From a virus: a stretch of DNA of 22,882 nucleotides. Below the pieces are notes generated by a model that did not search any database, was not told where the DNA came from, and was given only the letters and a program-made list of their open reading frames with translations. Shown one piece after another: positions 12,204 to 16,298 of the stretch. The position numbers and the translations under genes were made by a program. How positions within the stretch are numbered: the first letter of the stretch is position 1; each line of letters opens with the position of its first letter. The stretch is taken from positions 1 through 22,882 of the IMG/VR virus record IMGVR_UViG_3300021197_000641; one strand, written 5' to 3'.

Positions 12204-12587
12204 ATGTACAAACTCAGCAAACGTAGTCTTAACAATCTAAAAGGCGTACACCCAGATTTGGTGGGTGTCGTAAAGAGGGCTATAAAGACCACTGAGGTTG
12301 ACTTCGCTGTGATTGAGGGGGTTCGCTCCCTTGATCGTCAGCATCAACTATACAACGAGGGTGCCTCAAAGACACTCAACAGCCGCCACCTTACAGGCCA
12401 CGCAGTTGACCTGATGGCATGGGTCGATGGCACTGGTTCTTGGAACTGGGACTACTACCACATGATTGCTAAGGCAATGAAAGAAGCGGCAGCAGAGCAA
12501 GGGGTTCACTTGGTCTGGGGTGGTGACTGGAAGAGCTTTCCAGATGGACCACACTTCCAGTTAGACTGGGAGGCATATCCGAAATGA
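12204..12587 (+). CDS. Endolysin, M15-family peptidase
   Basis: The 127-residue enzyme is predicted to cut peptide cross-links of peptidoglycan at the end of infection. It shows the M15 (VanY/L-Ala-D-Glu peptidase) signature: S60-R-H62-L-T-G-H-A-V-D69 supplies two zinc ligands (H62, D69) and D114-G-P-H117 supplies the catalytic acid and third ligand, the arrangement of the T5 endolysin. GGDW (106-109) is also typical. There is no signal peptide, so release needs a holin. A GGAGGG ribosome site precedes it, and its stop overlaps the next start (ATGA), opening the lysis cassette. Confidence 0.9.
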   Translation: MYKLSKRSLNNLKGVHPDLVGVVKRAIKTTEVDFAVIEGVRSLDRQHQLYNEGASKTLNSRHLTGHAVDLMAWVDGTGSWNWDYYHMIAKAMKEAAAEQGVHLVWGGDWKSFPDGPHFQLDWEAYPK

Positions 12588-12838
12588 GTGATGCGTCTGA
12601 CCTTAGGTTAGCTAGGGTAGAGAAAGAAGTATCGGAACTCTATGACACAATAGAAAACCTCAAGACAACAGTGGCGCAGTTGAATATAACGATTGCGCTG
12701 CTACAACAAACAATCCAATCACTCAAGTCAGAAGCTGACAGCAGGACAGCGTTTAATCAACGTGTCTCCTTCTTCTTCATCGGGGGTGTGGTATCCGCAG
12801 TTCTCACCTTTGTAATCAAAGGGGGCCTTGTGATATGA
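12584..12838 (+). CDS. Coiled-coil protein with C-terminal membrane segment (XhlA-like)
   Basis: The 84-residue protein has an N-terminal coiled coil (about residues 8-52, regular hydrophobic spacing through LARVEKEVSELYDTIENL) followed by one transmembrane segment at about 61-78. This layout matches the haemolysin XhlA-like accessory lysis proteins often encoded beside endolysins. It overlaps the endolysin stop and the next start by ATGA junctions. It probably helps holin function or links the lysis complex to the membrane. Function is inferred from layout and neighbours. Confidence 0.7.
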   Translation: MSDASDLRLARVEKEVSELYDTIENLKTTVAQLNITIALLQQTIQSLKSEADSRTAFNQRVSFFFIGGVVSAVLTFVIKGGLVI

Positions 12839-12996
12839 CACGTATCTTTTTGAAGAACCTGCCTATGCTCATTTCTGGGGTGTTACTGGGGATAGCCACA
12901 ACATGGTGGTTACTTTGGGGCTACGGTGAGATTTCCTCCATCGACAGCCTAACACTTTTTATTGAGAAATCAGGAGAACAACAATGTCAGGAATAA
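12835..12996 (+). CDS. Small single-span membrane protein
   Basis: This 53-residue ORF starts with an ATGA overlap of the previous stop codon and ends inside the next gene, whose start lies 13 bases upstream of this stop. It has basic residues at the N-terminus (MTRIFLKNL) and one hydrophobic segment at about 10-29 containing GIATTWWLLWGY, then a polar C-terminus. It may be a small holin, antiholin or lysis accessory protein. It is easily missed because of its length, but the overlaps on both sides support it. Confidence 0.65.
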   Translation: MTRIFLKNLPMLISGVLLGIATTWWLLWGYGEISSIDSLTLFIEKSGEQQCQE

Positions 12997-13268
12997 CCAT
13001 AGACTTCGTCACGCTCGCTTGGGCTTTGTTACTGCTAGTACCACTAGTGCACTACGCCACAGAGGGCAGGAGCGTCATTGGTTTGACCATGGCATTATCG
13101 GTAGGGCTGTACTTAATTGCACAGTCCGGATGGACCAGTTCGTACCTTGCGGGGAGCGAGTGGGGGCGCGTCTTTAGCAACTACATCTGGTTCGTCTTTA
13201 ACTCCTCTGTGCTGCTGTCTTACACACTAGCACTGTACAAGTACGGGGGTAAACATGACGAAGAGTAA
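12984..13268 (+). CDS. Three-span membrane protein, candidate holin
   Basis: The 94-residue protein is preceded by AGGAGAA. Hydrophobic segments lie at about 6-24, 31-47 and 66-86, with a charged C-terminus (KYGGKHDEE). Three spans, small size, a charged tail and a location just after the endolysin fit a class I-type holin, which would let the endolysin cross the inner membrane. The two neighbouring membrane proteins are alternatives for that role, so this is the best candidate rather than a firm call. Confidence 0.65.
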   Translation: MSGITIDFVTLAWALLLLVPLVHYATEGRSVIGLTMALSVGLYLIAQSGWTSSYLAGSEWGRVFSNYIWFVFNSSVLLSYTLALYKYGGKHDEE

Positions 13269-13491
13269 GACCTTCAAGCGTGAAGTTGGGGTAGGCCTAA
13301 TGCTGGGCTTTTGTTACGTGGTGTACACAGGTGACCACGAGATGGTGAAAGTACTGGTGTGGCCTGTCTTCAGCTTTGCTGCTTTAGCATTTGGGATGGA
13401 TTGGTATGGGAAAGTTGGTAGTAGTCCTCGTGACACTAGTGGTGCTGACGGGTTGCAGCGGGTTAAACCCTCTGACGGCTCTTGGCGGTAA
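13255..13491 (+). CDS. Two-span membrane protein of the lysis cassette
   Basis: The 78-residue protein starts 14 bases before the end of the previous gene. Two hydrophobic stretches (about 10-24 and 30-48) are joined by a short loop YTGDHEM; the tail after residue 52 is hydrophilic. Small proteins with this K-R-E-V-G-hydrophobic then V-L-V-W-P-V-F pattern are seen near lysis genes of marine phages. The hydrophilic tail is encoded by DNA that also encodes the start of the spanin-like gene in another frame (86 bases shared). A holin or antiholin role is possible. Confidence 0.65.
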   Translation: MTKSKTFKREVGVGLMLGFCYVVYTGDHEMVKVLVWPVFSFAALAFGMDWYGKVGSSPRDTSGADGLQRVKPSDGSWR

Positions 13492-13798
13492 ACCAGTAGG
13501 CGTCAACGCCCAGATCGGGAAGGAAAACGAACAAGTCATAGGCGTCAAGACTGAGGCGACCTATGGGAATAACAGCTATGTGGCTCCAGTCAGTACATCA
13601 GTGCGACCAGTGTCACGTCCTTCAAGTGTAAACCAAGTCCAAGCACAAGAGAATAATGTAAAGGCTGATACAGTCGAAAACATTACAGTACATGAAGTAC
13701 CCCCTTGGATCGTACTAGTTGCGCTCCTTGGGTGGCTACTGCCTACACCTTCACAGATCGGTAGGAGCTTCATTAACTTGTTCAAATGGAGGAAATAA
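13406..13798 (+). CDS. Probable unimolecular spanin (lipoprotein with C-terminal span)
   Basis: The 130-residue protein has a lipoprotein signal with lipobox L14-T-G-C17, a hydrophilic Ser/Val/Asn-rich middle, and a transmembrane segment near the C-terminus (about 99-113, in HEVPPWIVLVALLGWLLP) followed by a basic end. An outer-membrane lipid anchor plus an inner-membrane anchor in one chain is the layout of u-spanins such as T1 gp11, which fuse inner and outer membranes in the last step of lysis. I chose ATG 13406 over the in-frame TTG at 13391 because it sits 5 bases after GGATGGA and gives a normal signal sequence. Confidence 0.72.
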   Translation: MGKLVVVLVTLVVLTGCSGLNPLTALGGKPVGVNAQIGKENEQVIGVKTEATYGNNSYVAPVSTSVRPVSRPSSVNQVQAQENNVKADTVENITVHEVPPWIVLVALLGWLLPTPSQIGRSFINLFKWRK

Positions 13799-13926
13799 TG
13801 AACTTTATTGAGGGGCTCGTAGGGGTCTCGGTGGTTCTTGTGGTGGTAGTGGCTGTTGTATTTCTCTGGGATACAGTCACTCACGTCTACACACAGGACC
13901 ACATTGAAACATTCGAAGGGGAATGA
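13798..13926 (+). CDS. Small single-span membrane protein
   Basis: This 42-residue ORF has a TAATG overlap with the spanin-like gene and a strong GGAGGA site at 13788-13793, 4 bases before ATG. Residues about 6-24 form a Val-rich transmembrane helix (VGVSVVLVVVVAVVFLW) followed by an acidic C-terminal tail. It closes the series of membrane genes. Function is unknown; it may be a lysis regulator or a membrane protein of the following exported-protein group. Confidence 0.62.
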   Translation: MNFIEGLVGVSVVLVVVVAVVFLWDTVTHVYTQDHIETFEGE

Positions 13927-13927
13927 C

Positions 13928-14413
13928 ATGAAGAAACTATTAGCCGCAACGGCAATCATGGGCTTTGGAGCTACAGCAGTAGCTGCTAACATTGCAGGTC
14001 CAGATATGTCGTTGACACTTAATGCCACCAACCTAGCTATGTCGTGTTCATTCACGGGGCCACTATCAGGCTCTATGACCTACGACGAAGCTAATCAACA
14101 GTTTGTGAGTATCGCTAGCCCAGCAACGATGGACATAACCTATCGTTCACTAGGGTCTATCCTCATCACTAACGACAGTGTGTTCGACGGTAACTCAGGC
14201 GCTATCACTGCGATTGACTTCACTGGTTCTACATTTGGAGCTACAGCAATCACAGATAATGGTAACCTGACAGGTACGTTCACACTGGTAGCTGACGGGG
14301 CGTTGACTATTGACACGCTGACGATTGACCCAGCTACCGTGGATGTGGCTACATCACAGATTGCAGACGAAGGTAGTTATCCTATTGCCTTCACTGTGAC
14401 ATGCCTTGAGTGA
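13928..14413 (+). CDS. Exported beta-rich protein, unknown function
   Basis: ATG 13928 gives 161 residues with a clear Sec signal peptide (MKKLLAATAIMGFGATAVAA, cleavage near 19-20); an upstream non-ATG start at 13856 would bury it. The mature part is almost wholly Thr/Ser/Gly/Ala/Asp with alternating hydrophobic residues, as in a beta-sandwich, and has exactly two cysteines, C40 and C159, which could tie the first and last strands together. This resembles pilin or adhesin subunits more than any phage family I know, but I do not recognise it. It starts the final late gene group, and its stop overlaps the next start (TGATG). Confidence 0.75.
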   Translation: MKKLLAATAIMGFGATAVAANIAGPDMSLTLNATNLAMSCSFTGPLSGSMTYDEANQQFVSIASPATMDITYRSLGSILITNDSVFDGNSGAITAIDFTGSTFGATAITDNGNLTGTFTLVADGALTIDTLTIDPATVDVATSQIADEGSYPIAFTVTCLE

Positions 14414-14790
14414 TGCTTAGGTTTATAACAATGGTTGCACTGCTGGCTTACGCTGGTGGTGCAGCCGCACACCAATCGTCCACAAGAGACCTCGAGAGTA
14501 GCGTGTCCGTATTCGGAGAGAGCAACATATGGCTCAAGAACCTGTACGATGCCCCTGTTACATACGAGGTAGAAGTACTAGACAAGGACACAATGAGGCC
14601 CACTAAGTCACAGTGGCGGTCCTCTCTTATTAACAACGAGGTGACACTAGCCACAGAAGAAGTTGTGGATATTAAAGTTACCGTGAGAGATAAAGGTAAA
14701 TACTATGTCTGCACTAAAGTTAAACGTGAGCAGTCTGGCGGGAACGTGCAGCTTAGCAGCCGTGTGTGCCTTCGTCTCTGGCACCGCTAA
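14413..14790 (+). CDS. Exported single-domain Ig-like protein, unknown
   Basis: ATG 14413 overlaps the previous stop (TGATG) and is preferred to GTG 14410. The 125-residue product has a signal peptide (cleavage near 19-20, after GGAAA). The mature part is about 105 residues of beta-strand pattern, with IWLKNLYDAPVTYEVEVLD around 39-57 and C100 and C119 near the end. The N-L-Y-D-A-P-V-T-Y-E-V-E-V run is reminiscent of the first Ig-like domain of periplasmic fimbrial chaperones, but the second domain is missing. It may partner the preceding exported protein. That pairing is a hypothesis. Confidence 0.7.
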   Translation: MLRFITMVALLAYAGGAAAHQSSTRDLESSVSVFGESNIWLKNLYDAPVTYEVEVLDKDTMRPTKSQWRSSLINNEVTLATEEVVDIKVTVRDKGKYYVCTKVKREQSGGNVQLSSRVCLRLWHR

Positions 14791-15100
14791 CGCCGATAGC
14801 TTTACCACACGCTACAATCAGTCTACCTGCCAGTACACGGTAGACAACGACGATGGTAGAAGCGTAGAGTTCTTTGGTGAACTGGACACAAAGACCGACG
14901 AGGCTACTATAGGCTTCAAGTACGTCATTGAGTTTCAGAAACCAAGGTCTATTTACAATAGGTGTGGTGACAATCAAAGATTAGCCATAAGGCAAATGCA
15001 GCTGGACATTCAAAAGAAAGAGCTAGAGCTAGAGTTACTCCGGCGTAGGGCAGAGGAAGCCCATCAGCCACAGGGCTCACGGGACGAACACGACTGGTAG
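14705..15100 (+). CDS. Exported protein with C-terminal helix, unknown
   Basis: The 131-residue ORF begins 86 bases inside the previous gene. It has a plausible signal peptide (hydrophobic core SLAAVCAFV, cleavage after SGTANA, residue 30). A small domain follows with two cysteines (C42, C87) and a Y-x-V-x-N-D-D-G pattern. Then comes a charged helix, about residues 89-119, with IQKKELELELLRRRAEEA typical of a coiled coil. The long overlap with another real-looking gene lowers certainty slightly, but signal peptide, cysteine pair and helix would be hard to get from a shadow frame. It is the last gene before the terminator. Confidence 0.65.
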   Translation: MSALKLNVSSLAGTCSLAAVCAFVSGTANADSFTTRYNQSTCQYTVDNDDGRSVEFFGELDTKTDEATIGFKYVIEFQKPRSIYNRCGDNQRLAIRQMQLDIQKKELELELLRRRAEEAHQPQGSRDEHDW

Positions 15101-15130: not shown

Positions 15131-15182
15131 AAAAAAAGCCCCAGAGCTCCAAGGATTTCTCCAAGGAACTCTGGGGCTTTTT
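15131..15182. terminator. Bidirectional intrinsic terminator between convergent operons
   Basis: A perfect 9-bp stem, GCCCCAGAG (15138-15146) with CTCTGGGGC (15169-15177), is flanked by seven A on the left and five T on the right, so it works as a Rho-independent terminator on both strands. It lies 30 bases after the last + gene and 4 bases beyond the last - gene. The 22-base loop holds two copies of CTCCAAGG four bases apart. Confidence 0.92.
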
Positions 15183-15186
15183 GCGT

Positions 15187-15588
15187 TTAAACGGCACCTT
15201 TCATGCAGACCATGAATGCCTCGGCACCTAGGTCGCTAGGTCCTACATCTTTCTTCACTACGTAGATAGCGTAGATAACTACACGGGCCTGCTCTGTGGT
15301 CCAGTTGTCTGTACTCATCAGGTACTCATAGATTACATCAGCACGTATGCCTTGGTCCCTGAGTGTGGCTAGGGCCATGGTTGCGTTAGCTACGCCCTCG
15401 CAGTGGTCAGCTGCTGTCTCCGCTGCTACAGCCTTGAGGCTGATGACGGTCACCAGTATGAACGTGGCAAGTGTGAGGAGCATTGTCTTAAATATAGTTG
15501 CAGGTTTCATCTTATAGTCCTTCCTTTTCCAGTATTCCCCTGCAGGTTTAAGTTTTCCGCAGGTGGTGCAGGTGTGGTGCTCCATCAT
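15187..15588 (-). CDS. Exported protein with possible zinc-finger N-terminal extension
   Basis: The frame has two credible starts. ATG 15588 overlaps the phoH stop as ATGA and gives 133 residues beginning MMEHHTCTTCGKLKPAGEYW, a short C-x2-C zinc-knuckle-like segment. ATG 15510 has a strong AAGGAAGGA site and gives 107 residues with an ordinary Sec signal peptide (hydrophobic core LLTLATFILVTVI). The common mature part has two cysteines (C63 and C128 in the long numbering) in a C-x-G-V-A-N ... M-V-C-M-K-G frame, like small periplasmic helical proteins. The short form is probably the main product; both may be made. Function is unknown. Confidence 0.7.
   Translation of the reverse strand: MMEHHTCTTCGKLKPAGEYWKRKDYKMKPATIFKTMLLTLATFILVTVISLKAVAAETAADHCEGVANATMALATLRDQGIRADVIYEYLMSTDNWTTEQARVVIYAIYVVKKDVGPSDLGAEAFMVCMKGAV
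15518..15526 (-). promoter_or_regulatory. Internal ribosome binding site for the exported short form
   Basis: On the - strand AAGGAAGGA ends about 7-8 bases before ATG 15510. It is better than the site before the upstream in-frame ATG 15588, and it decides the start of the form with an N-terminal signal peptide. Confidence 0.65.
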
Positions 15589-16298
15589 AGGCCCTCAGCA
15601 TCGAATGCTACGATCCATTGTTTACAGATGTCTGAGCGGATGATATCATCAGTGGTGAACTCGATGACCTTAGCATCCATGTTGTACTTCTTCGCCAAGT
15701 GGATGGCCTTCGACAGTCCAGACGTCTCGTTAATGTCCGACTGCTTAACGTCTCCGTTGAGTACGAGCGTACAGTTCTCACCCACCCGTGTCACTACCAT
15801 CTTCATCTCTGCGACTGTCATATTCTGAGCCTCATCCATGATGATGTACGCATTGTCGAAAGATCGACCACGCATAAGAGCCATAGGTGCTACCTCGATG
15901 TTTCCATTCTTGATAGCTGTCTCAACTGTGCCTTTCCCTAGGTGCTGCGTGAGGACGTCTAACACAGGCATAGCCCACGGTAGCGTCTTATCCTCTAGTC
16001 CACCCTTCAGGTAACCTAGATCACGTCCTACAGCCACGTGTGGGCGCGTGATGATGATCTTGTCGATCTCCTTAGAGGTGTACTTGTTGGCTGCGTGTGA
16101 GGCTACCACATACGTCTTACCTGTACCAGCAGGACCTACGCTAATAACCTGAGCACTCTCTTGCAGGGCCTTGATGTACTCGCCTTGCATCTCAGTCTTT
16201 GGCACTAGGGTAGCTAACTGCTTACCAGATGCTCCTTTGTAGTTTGTTTTCCGCTTGCTTGTCATTTTCACAACAGGGCTTGAACTCTGACTACTCAT
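15585..16298 (-). CDS. phoH: PhoH-like ATPase
   Basis: The 237-residue P-loop ATPase has Walker A G55-PAGTGK-T62 and Walker B at 152-159 (IIMDEAQN). TRPHVAVGRDLGYLKGG, LMRGRSFDNAYIIMDEAQ and NGDVKQSD are the family signatures of PhoH. PhoH genes are very common in marine phages and were first noted in roseophage SIO1. In bacteria the family is linked to phosphate starvation and RNA metabolism; its role in phages is unsettled. AAGGAG precedes the start, and ATGA overlaps join it to thyX before and the exported-protein gene after. Confidence 0.95.
   Translation of the reverse strand: MSSQSSSPVVKMTSKRKTNYKGASGKQLATLVPKTEMQGEYIKALQESAQVISVGPAGTGKTYVVASHAANKYTSKEIDKIIITRPHVAVGRDLGYLKGGLEDKTLPWAMPVLDVLTQHLGKGTVETAIKNGNIEVAPMALMRGRSFDNAYIIMDEAQNMTVAEMKMVVTRVGENCTLVLNGDVKQSDINETSGLSKAIHLAKKYNMDAKVIEFTTDDIIRSDICKQWIVAFDAEGL

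Follow-up and report, generated by a model that had tools for sequence, protein, structure and literature searches.

Three adjacent late genes in a marine phage of Roseobacter-type bacteria were found to form a conserved, horizontally exchanged unit (a moron), with conservation, mobility and selection all observed. New here are this mobile unit and the predicted Ig fold of its second product, which is nearest to that of the periplasmic chaperones of chaperone-usher systems. The trio probably alters the envelope of the infected cell late in infection, and the reading preferred here, at a probability of roughly 0.35, is that the moron encodes three secreted proteins that would modify the envelope, protein 2 holding protein 1, for the purpose of phage exclusion.

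Genetic context of the three genes

The window, i.e. the whole stretch of DNA analysed, is an IMG/VR record of 22,882 bp derived from a podovirus of the subfamily Cobavirinae (Zobellviridae, Roseobacter phages). Its tail-appendage protein is 44-47% identical to the counterparts in SIO1, P12053L, ICBM1-3, CRP-4 and CRP-5, and its genes are laid out in two arms around a central terminator, as in cultured cobaviruses, where a two-armed genome with the terminator at the same central position has been described (PMC6775973). The features relevant here are as follows.

12204-12587 (+), M15-type endolysin (phrog_465, E 4e-65; Pfam Peptidase_M15_4)
12584-12838 (+), XhlA/hemolysin-like coiled-coil and TM protein, holin-like; related gene in all phages carrying the trio
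12984-13268 (+), 94-aa membrane protein; related gene in all phages carrying the trio
13391-13798 (+), spanin-like lipoprotein with a C-terminal TM segment (phrog_1804, E 4e-13)
13920-15100 (+), mobile three-gene cassette; the sole DNA in common with contig G001 (L031:7885-9066), missing from L060, L074 and CRP-13
13928-14413 (+), ORF1, 161 aa, exported, beta-rich, with Cys40 and Cys159; ends weakly pilin-like
14413-14790 (+), ORF2, 125 aa (126 from a GTG at 14410), exported, predicted Ig fold like PapD domain 1, with Cys100 (strand F) and Cys119 (strand G)
14705-14790 (+), ORF2/ORF3 overlap, 86 nt in different frames, of equal length in all four phages
14705-15100 (+), ORF3, 131 aa, exported, with Cys42 and Cys87; C-terminal segment helical and coiled-coil-like
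15139-15176 (both strands), bidirectional intrinsic terminator, formed by an inverted repeat with a terminator score on each strand; closes the late operon

Upstream of the trio, the gene order is M15 endolysin, coiled-coil/TM holin-like gene, small TM proteins and lipoprotein/TM spanin. The terminator repeat starts ~40 bp past the end of the trio, and beyond it lie the convergent genes for PhoH, ThyX and RNR. The coordinates and the terminator confirm the first-pass annotation, which had placed three consecutive ORFs after the lysis genes at the close of the late operon. On the far side of the terminator, opposite the trio, lies a gene (15187-15588, -) of phrog_2315, a family without an assigned function; its product is seemingly exported if an inner ATG is the start (MKPATIFKTMLLTLATF...), and a similar-looking gene is placed after PhoH in contig L077.

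Coupling, export and selection

The end of ORF1 and the start of ORF2 share 1 nt (TGATG), and ORF3 starts 86 nt upstream of the end of ORF2 in another frame, with its signal peptide overwriting the last strands of ORF2. These overlaps make the trio a coupled unit and more than three neighbours.

The N-termini of all three products are signal-peptide-like, having a hydrophobic run and A-x-A-like sites. They scored 4.0-4.4 on a home-made signal-peptide measure, which is not a validated predictor and gives a rough separation (a GNAT protein scored 3.7 and a virion gene 3.4). This was level with the TM and lipoprotein genes of the window, and higher than the endolysin and the majority of tail genes. 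Every mature protein contains precisely two Cys residues, invariant at aligned places in all four homologue sets (40/159 in ORF1, 100/119 in ORF2 and 42/87 in ORF3, window numbering), a pattern that would be expected for folding in the oxidising periplasm, probably with one disulfide per protein. Sec export, as first proposed, is thus supported by the N-termini and the Cys pairs.

Simple Nei-Gojobori counts between the window and G001 gave dN/dS values of 0.12 for ORF1, 0.12 for ORF2 and 0.31 for ORF3, the last being affected by the overlap. The genes are under purifying selection, and these values together with the Cys pairs lend independent support to the view that the ORFs encode real, exported proteins. 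Interpretation as a toxin-antitoxin system was set aside, as export of all three proteins speaks against it, and a defence system was likewise set aside when PADLOC returned no match.

Distribution and mobility of the cassette

The trio was found in three further IMG/VR contigs, making four phages with the window, and both the gene order and the 86-nt overlap are unchanged in them.

G001 (3300021197_000815), HMO-2011-like; terminase 75% identical to that of Roseobacter phage CRP-13
G002 (3300021197_000832), Autographiviridae-like, with a T7-type RNA polymerase
G003 (3300035070_001610), Autographiviridae-like, with a T7-type RNA polymerase

Profile scans of IMG/VR with each gene separately returned the identical three contigs. 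The four carriers therefore span three lineages, cobavirus, HMO-2011-like and Autographiviridae-like. The nearest cultured relative of G002 and G003 is Roseobacter phage CRP-143, at 33%, and Rhodobacterales hosts are likely for all carriers from their nearest cultured relatives, which for G002 and G003 are distant.

When the window was compared with a 14-kb stretch of G001, detectable DNA sharing was confined to 13920-15100 (L031:7885-9066; 81.5% identity over 1,182 bp), a segment that opens at the ribosome-binding region of gene 1 and closes with the gene 3 stop codon. The trio was absent from the matching region of CRP-13, the HMO-2011-like relative of G001. Contig L060 (3300025767_000404) is a sister of G003 with flanks 94% and 91% identical, and between these flanks the fibre tip of L060 is different and the trio is missing. 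Several stretches of cobavirus L074 match the window at 71-92% identity, and in this phage the endolysin, XhlA-like and holin-like genes are followed directly by PhoH, with no trio. Within the cassette, ORF1 of G003 is nearer to those of the window and G001 (dN 0.22 and 0.19) than to the G002 copy (0.30). For ORF3 of G003, the nearest is instead the G002 copy (dN 0.36, against about 0.5 to the others). These different closest relatives suggest that recombination has also occurred inside the cassette.

A search for the same trio in related roseophages had been proposed at the outset. The genes were indeed kept together across four phages, but they were absent from every cultured relative examined, and the trio is thus not a stable roseophage feature but a rare mobile cassette. 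In cultured cobaviruses (CRP-4, CRP-5, ICBM1 and P12053L) the slot is filled by other small accessory genes, which like the trio lie between the lysis genes and the central terminator but are not related to it. Small late genes in CRP-13 (L072; 5655-5843 and 6160-6477) and CRP-5 (L019; 6321-6509 and 6509-6772) look common to both lineages, and as they share the same slot, this seems to be a general exchange site between HMO-2011-like and cobavirus roseophages.

Most late accessory genes in marine phages are uncharacterised. As this cassette has moved as a unit across three lineages, with its gene order and out-of-frame overlap kept and under purifying selection, it must be useful, and its task probably lies in the envelope of a Roseobacter-type host.

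Over 169 residues, the window PhoH (15585-16298, -) shares 96% identity with that of L077, a contig that encodes a T7-type RNA polymerase; its identity to the PhoH proteins of G002 and G003 is 78-80% (compared loci L077, L075 and L076). Judged from these sequences, gene flow between cobaviruses and Autographiviridae-like phages appears to extend beyond the trio.

Searches for related proteins

No supported match to any trio protein was found in PHROGs, Pfam, NCBIfam or PADLOC, in keeping with the initial view that the trio belongs to no recognised phage family; ORF3 gave borderline matches (E 0.002-0.02) to PHROG families of unknown function. Sequence searches of 50,697 phage genomes did not find the trio, one of them giving chance hits only (E about 4). 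ORF2 was not found in plasmids by sequence search, and the ORF1 and ORF2 patterns did not occur in 84,980 species genomes. HMMs of the trio run over 35 contigs with the 94-aa TM gene recovered the same carriers only, and a weak match in L050 was set aside, as by eye it resembles a ClpP-type protease. As it is missing from the phage, plasmid (ORF2) and species-genome (ORF1 and ORF2) searches, the trio is a rare phage-borne mobile cassette.

Predicted fold of ORF2

AlphaFold, supplied with the four aligned sequences only, modelled ORF2 as a beta-sandwich with seven to eight strands (pTM 0.59; pLDDT 84-90 for residues 41-100). In a Foldseek search of the PDB, the best match was DraB (E 4.6e-6, probability 1.00, TM 0.60 by query), and ranks 1-7 were all fimbrial chaperones, DraB and Caf1M being followed by SafB, CsuC, PapD and FaeE. 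From rank 8, MSP and ASH domains, which are members of the same wider PapD-like superfamily, were mixed into the list. ORF2 is therefore predicted, by computation only, to have the Ig fold of PapD-type domain 1, and the likeness to fimbrial-chaperone domain 1 that had been noticed from sequence pattern reappears in the model.

The two Cys residues fall on predicted strands 95-104 (Cys100) and 117-124 (Cys119). In FGL chaperones a disulfide links strands F1 and G1 (PMC4133393, Table 2), and ORF2 resembles domain 1 of the members DraB, Caf1M and SafB in having one Cys on F and one on G, which may form such a bond. It also shares the alternating hydrophobic residues that lead up to and continue in the last strand; alternate residues are hydrophobic in ORF2 except for one Ser (V112, L114, S116, V118, L120, L122), and the pattern is largely retained in the homologues. 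In contrast, the F1-G1 loop of FGL chaperones averages 24 residues, whereas that of ORF2 has about 12 (105-116, between predicted strands). FGL chaperones also have an N-terminal extension of 12-14 residues with an anchoring Arg; in ORF2, about 9-16 residues, in a low-confidence model, separate the putative cleavage site from the first strands and include no invariant Arg. Where K-12 chaperones close domain 1 with I-K-L-F/Y-x-R-P, ORF2 ends in C-L-R-L-W-H-R, in a register that we set ourselves.

ORF2 gave no sequence match to PapD_N (PF00345), and its profile found nothing among seven K-12 chaperones, a set without the FGL feature. The protein stops after one domain in all four phages, with no second Ig-like domain. 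No usher gene was found, the cassette having three genes only and all large window ORFs matching phage families. Chaperones of chaperone-usher systems are bacterial and have two domains and an usher, whereas ORF2 is single-domain, usher-less and phage-borne. Given the absence of a sequence match, the single domain, the loop of ~12 residues and the lack of an usher, ORF2 cannot be classified as a chaperone-usher chaperone, though from its model it may work like half of one. To our knowledge, this fold serves pili only in two-domain proteins working with an usher, and among the papers listed by literature searches none reported a fimbrial-type chaperone encoded by a phage. Should protein 2 indeed work as a half-chaperone, it would represent a minimal form of the fold and a direct route to an undescribed cell-surface phage tactic.

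ORF1 and ORF3

Pilins are exported, beta-rich and encoded beside a chaperone gene, and ORF1 is likewise exported, beta-rich and beside the chaperone-like ORF2. The pilin likeness suggested by the first-pass annotation was weakly supported. The C-terminal strand and the context of the first Cys, when compared with the corresponding strands of K-12 pilins, scored about as high as the best 1-2% of control segments, with controls scoring as high in 2 of 177 cases for the C-terminus (one-residue shift) and 6 of 573 for the Cys context, in a test that was post hoc and weak. However, the ORF1 profile gave only a 19-residue match to the K-12 pilins (9% probability, not significant), and the second Cys, which in ORF1 is at the C-terminus, is placed elsewhere in pilins. 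Unlike pilins, ORF1 has no family match, with no fimbrial family found in Pfam and PDB sequence searches, and no confident fold; AlphaFold gave no usable model (pLDDT 34). Failure to fold as a monomer would fit a subunit that needs a partner strand and, equally, a protein for which relatives are too few.

ORF3 has an N-terminal part containing the Cys pair followed by a helical tail. The C-terminal segment is charged and L/I-spaced by eye, which fits the coiled-coil tail originally described.

Possible roles of the trio

In the preferred reading, the three products would be made at the end of the late operon, with translational coupling keeping them in step, and exported by Sec to the periplasm, where oxidation would give each one disulfide. 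Protein 2, as a stand-alone PapD-type domain 1, would use its last strand and the preceding alternating hydrophobic run to hold the beta-rich protein 1 as a subunit until, or while, it is placed at the outer membrane. Protein 3 would oligomerise through its helical tail, or anchor and gather the complex. The finished complex would change the envelope such that other phages or released progeny could not re-attach to, or inject into, the dying cell. Complex formation, and any localisation beyond export, are suppositions of this scheme.

Superinfection exclusion would be the likeliest purpose, given that the cassette is an accessory one with exported products, that the phages exchanging it plausibly have hosts in common, and that the fibre tip and the trio changed together in the G003/L060 exchange. 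The latter, a single case, would be expected if the trio answered to receptor choice. The envelope-acting superinfection-exclusion proteins T5 Llp, T4 Spackle and Cor are like the trio in being small exported accessory proteins of lytic phages, but each is a single gene, whereas the trio is three coupled genes in a late position with no sequence match to them. Late expression is also late for exclusion; established proteins of this kind, T4 Spackle among them, are made early (PMC7677548). The preferred reading is further weakened by the absence of a sequence-level chaperone link for protein 2, of a domain 2 and of an usher, and by the lack of a confident fold and the off-pilin position of the second Cys in protein 1.

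Fibre tips are glycine-rich in G002 (L006; 2682-3731) and G003 (L007; 1875-3890) and not glycine-rich in the trio-less L060. It is possible, from very few cases, that receptor type is linked to the trio.

A plausible though somewhat unlikely alternative is that protein 2 is Ig/MSP-like without chaperone ancestry or function, and that the trio is a secreted complex binding a target in the envelope or outside the cell. MSP and ASH domains also match the ORF2 model, Ig-like folds are frequent among viral proteins and ORF2 has no sequence link to chaperones. However, fimbrial chaperones alone occupy the first seven PDB ranks, and the placement of the two Cys residues, one on strand F and one on strand G, agrees with that in FGL chaperones.

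That the trio assists lysis, contributing alongside the holin, endolysin and spanin to the opening or destabilisation of the outer membrane as infection ends, is unlikely, although it adjoins the lysis genes in all four phages, each of which also has related XhlA-like and 94-aa TM genes. These two genes occur in many contigs without the trio, trio-less close relatives still lyse, the window has its own spanin and G003 a spanin-like pair, and there was no supported lysis-family match. A spanin or other lysis protein was set aside as an identity for any of the three, as no PHROG lysis match was supported (the best, ORF3 to an endolysin, had E 0.12) and neither a conserved lipobox Cys nor a TM anchor was found.

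Interference with host pili, in which a decoy subunit and a half-chaperone would enter or block the host chaperone-usher pathway and so stop surface fibres, is doubtful. It draws on the predicted chaperone-like fold of protein 2 and the pilin-like ends of protein 1, but there is no sequence link, and the second, usher-binding domain is missing. An usher-less secreted machine, in which a one-domain chaperone relative would deliver a pilin-like subunit as a minimal form of donor-strand surface remodelling traded by lytic marine phages, is no less doubtful.

It is very improbable that the proteins are virion- or fibre-associated and join the particle either via the periplasm or on lysis, as podovirus particles are assembled in the cytoplasm whereas the signal-peptide-like N-termini and Cys pairs indicate the periplasm, and the fibres of the carriers are unrelated to one another, even though the trio directly follows the fibre genes in G002 and G003 and the G003/L060 exchange spans both.

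Membrane protein genes beside the lysis genes

The 94-aa membrane protein and the XhlA-like coiled-coil/TM protein form a small neighbourhood of their own beside the lysis genes. The 94-aa protein had no match in 50,697 phage records; its relatives were found in 35 IMG/VR contigs, most of which also have the XhlA-like gene, and the two genes are perhaps an undescribed holin set.
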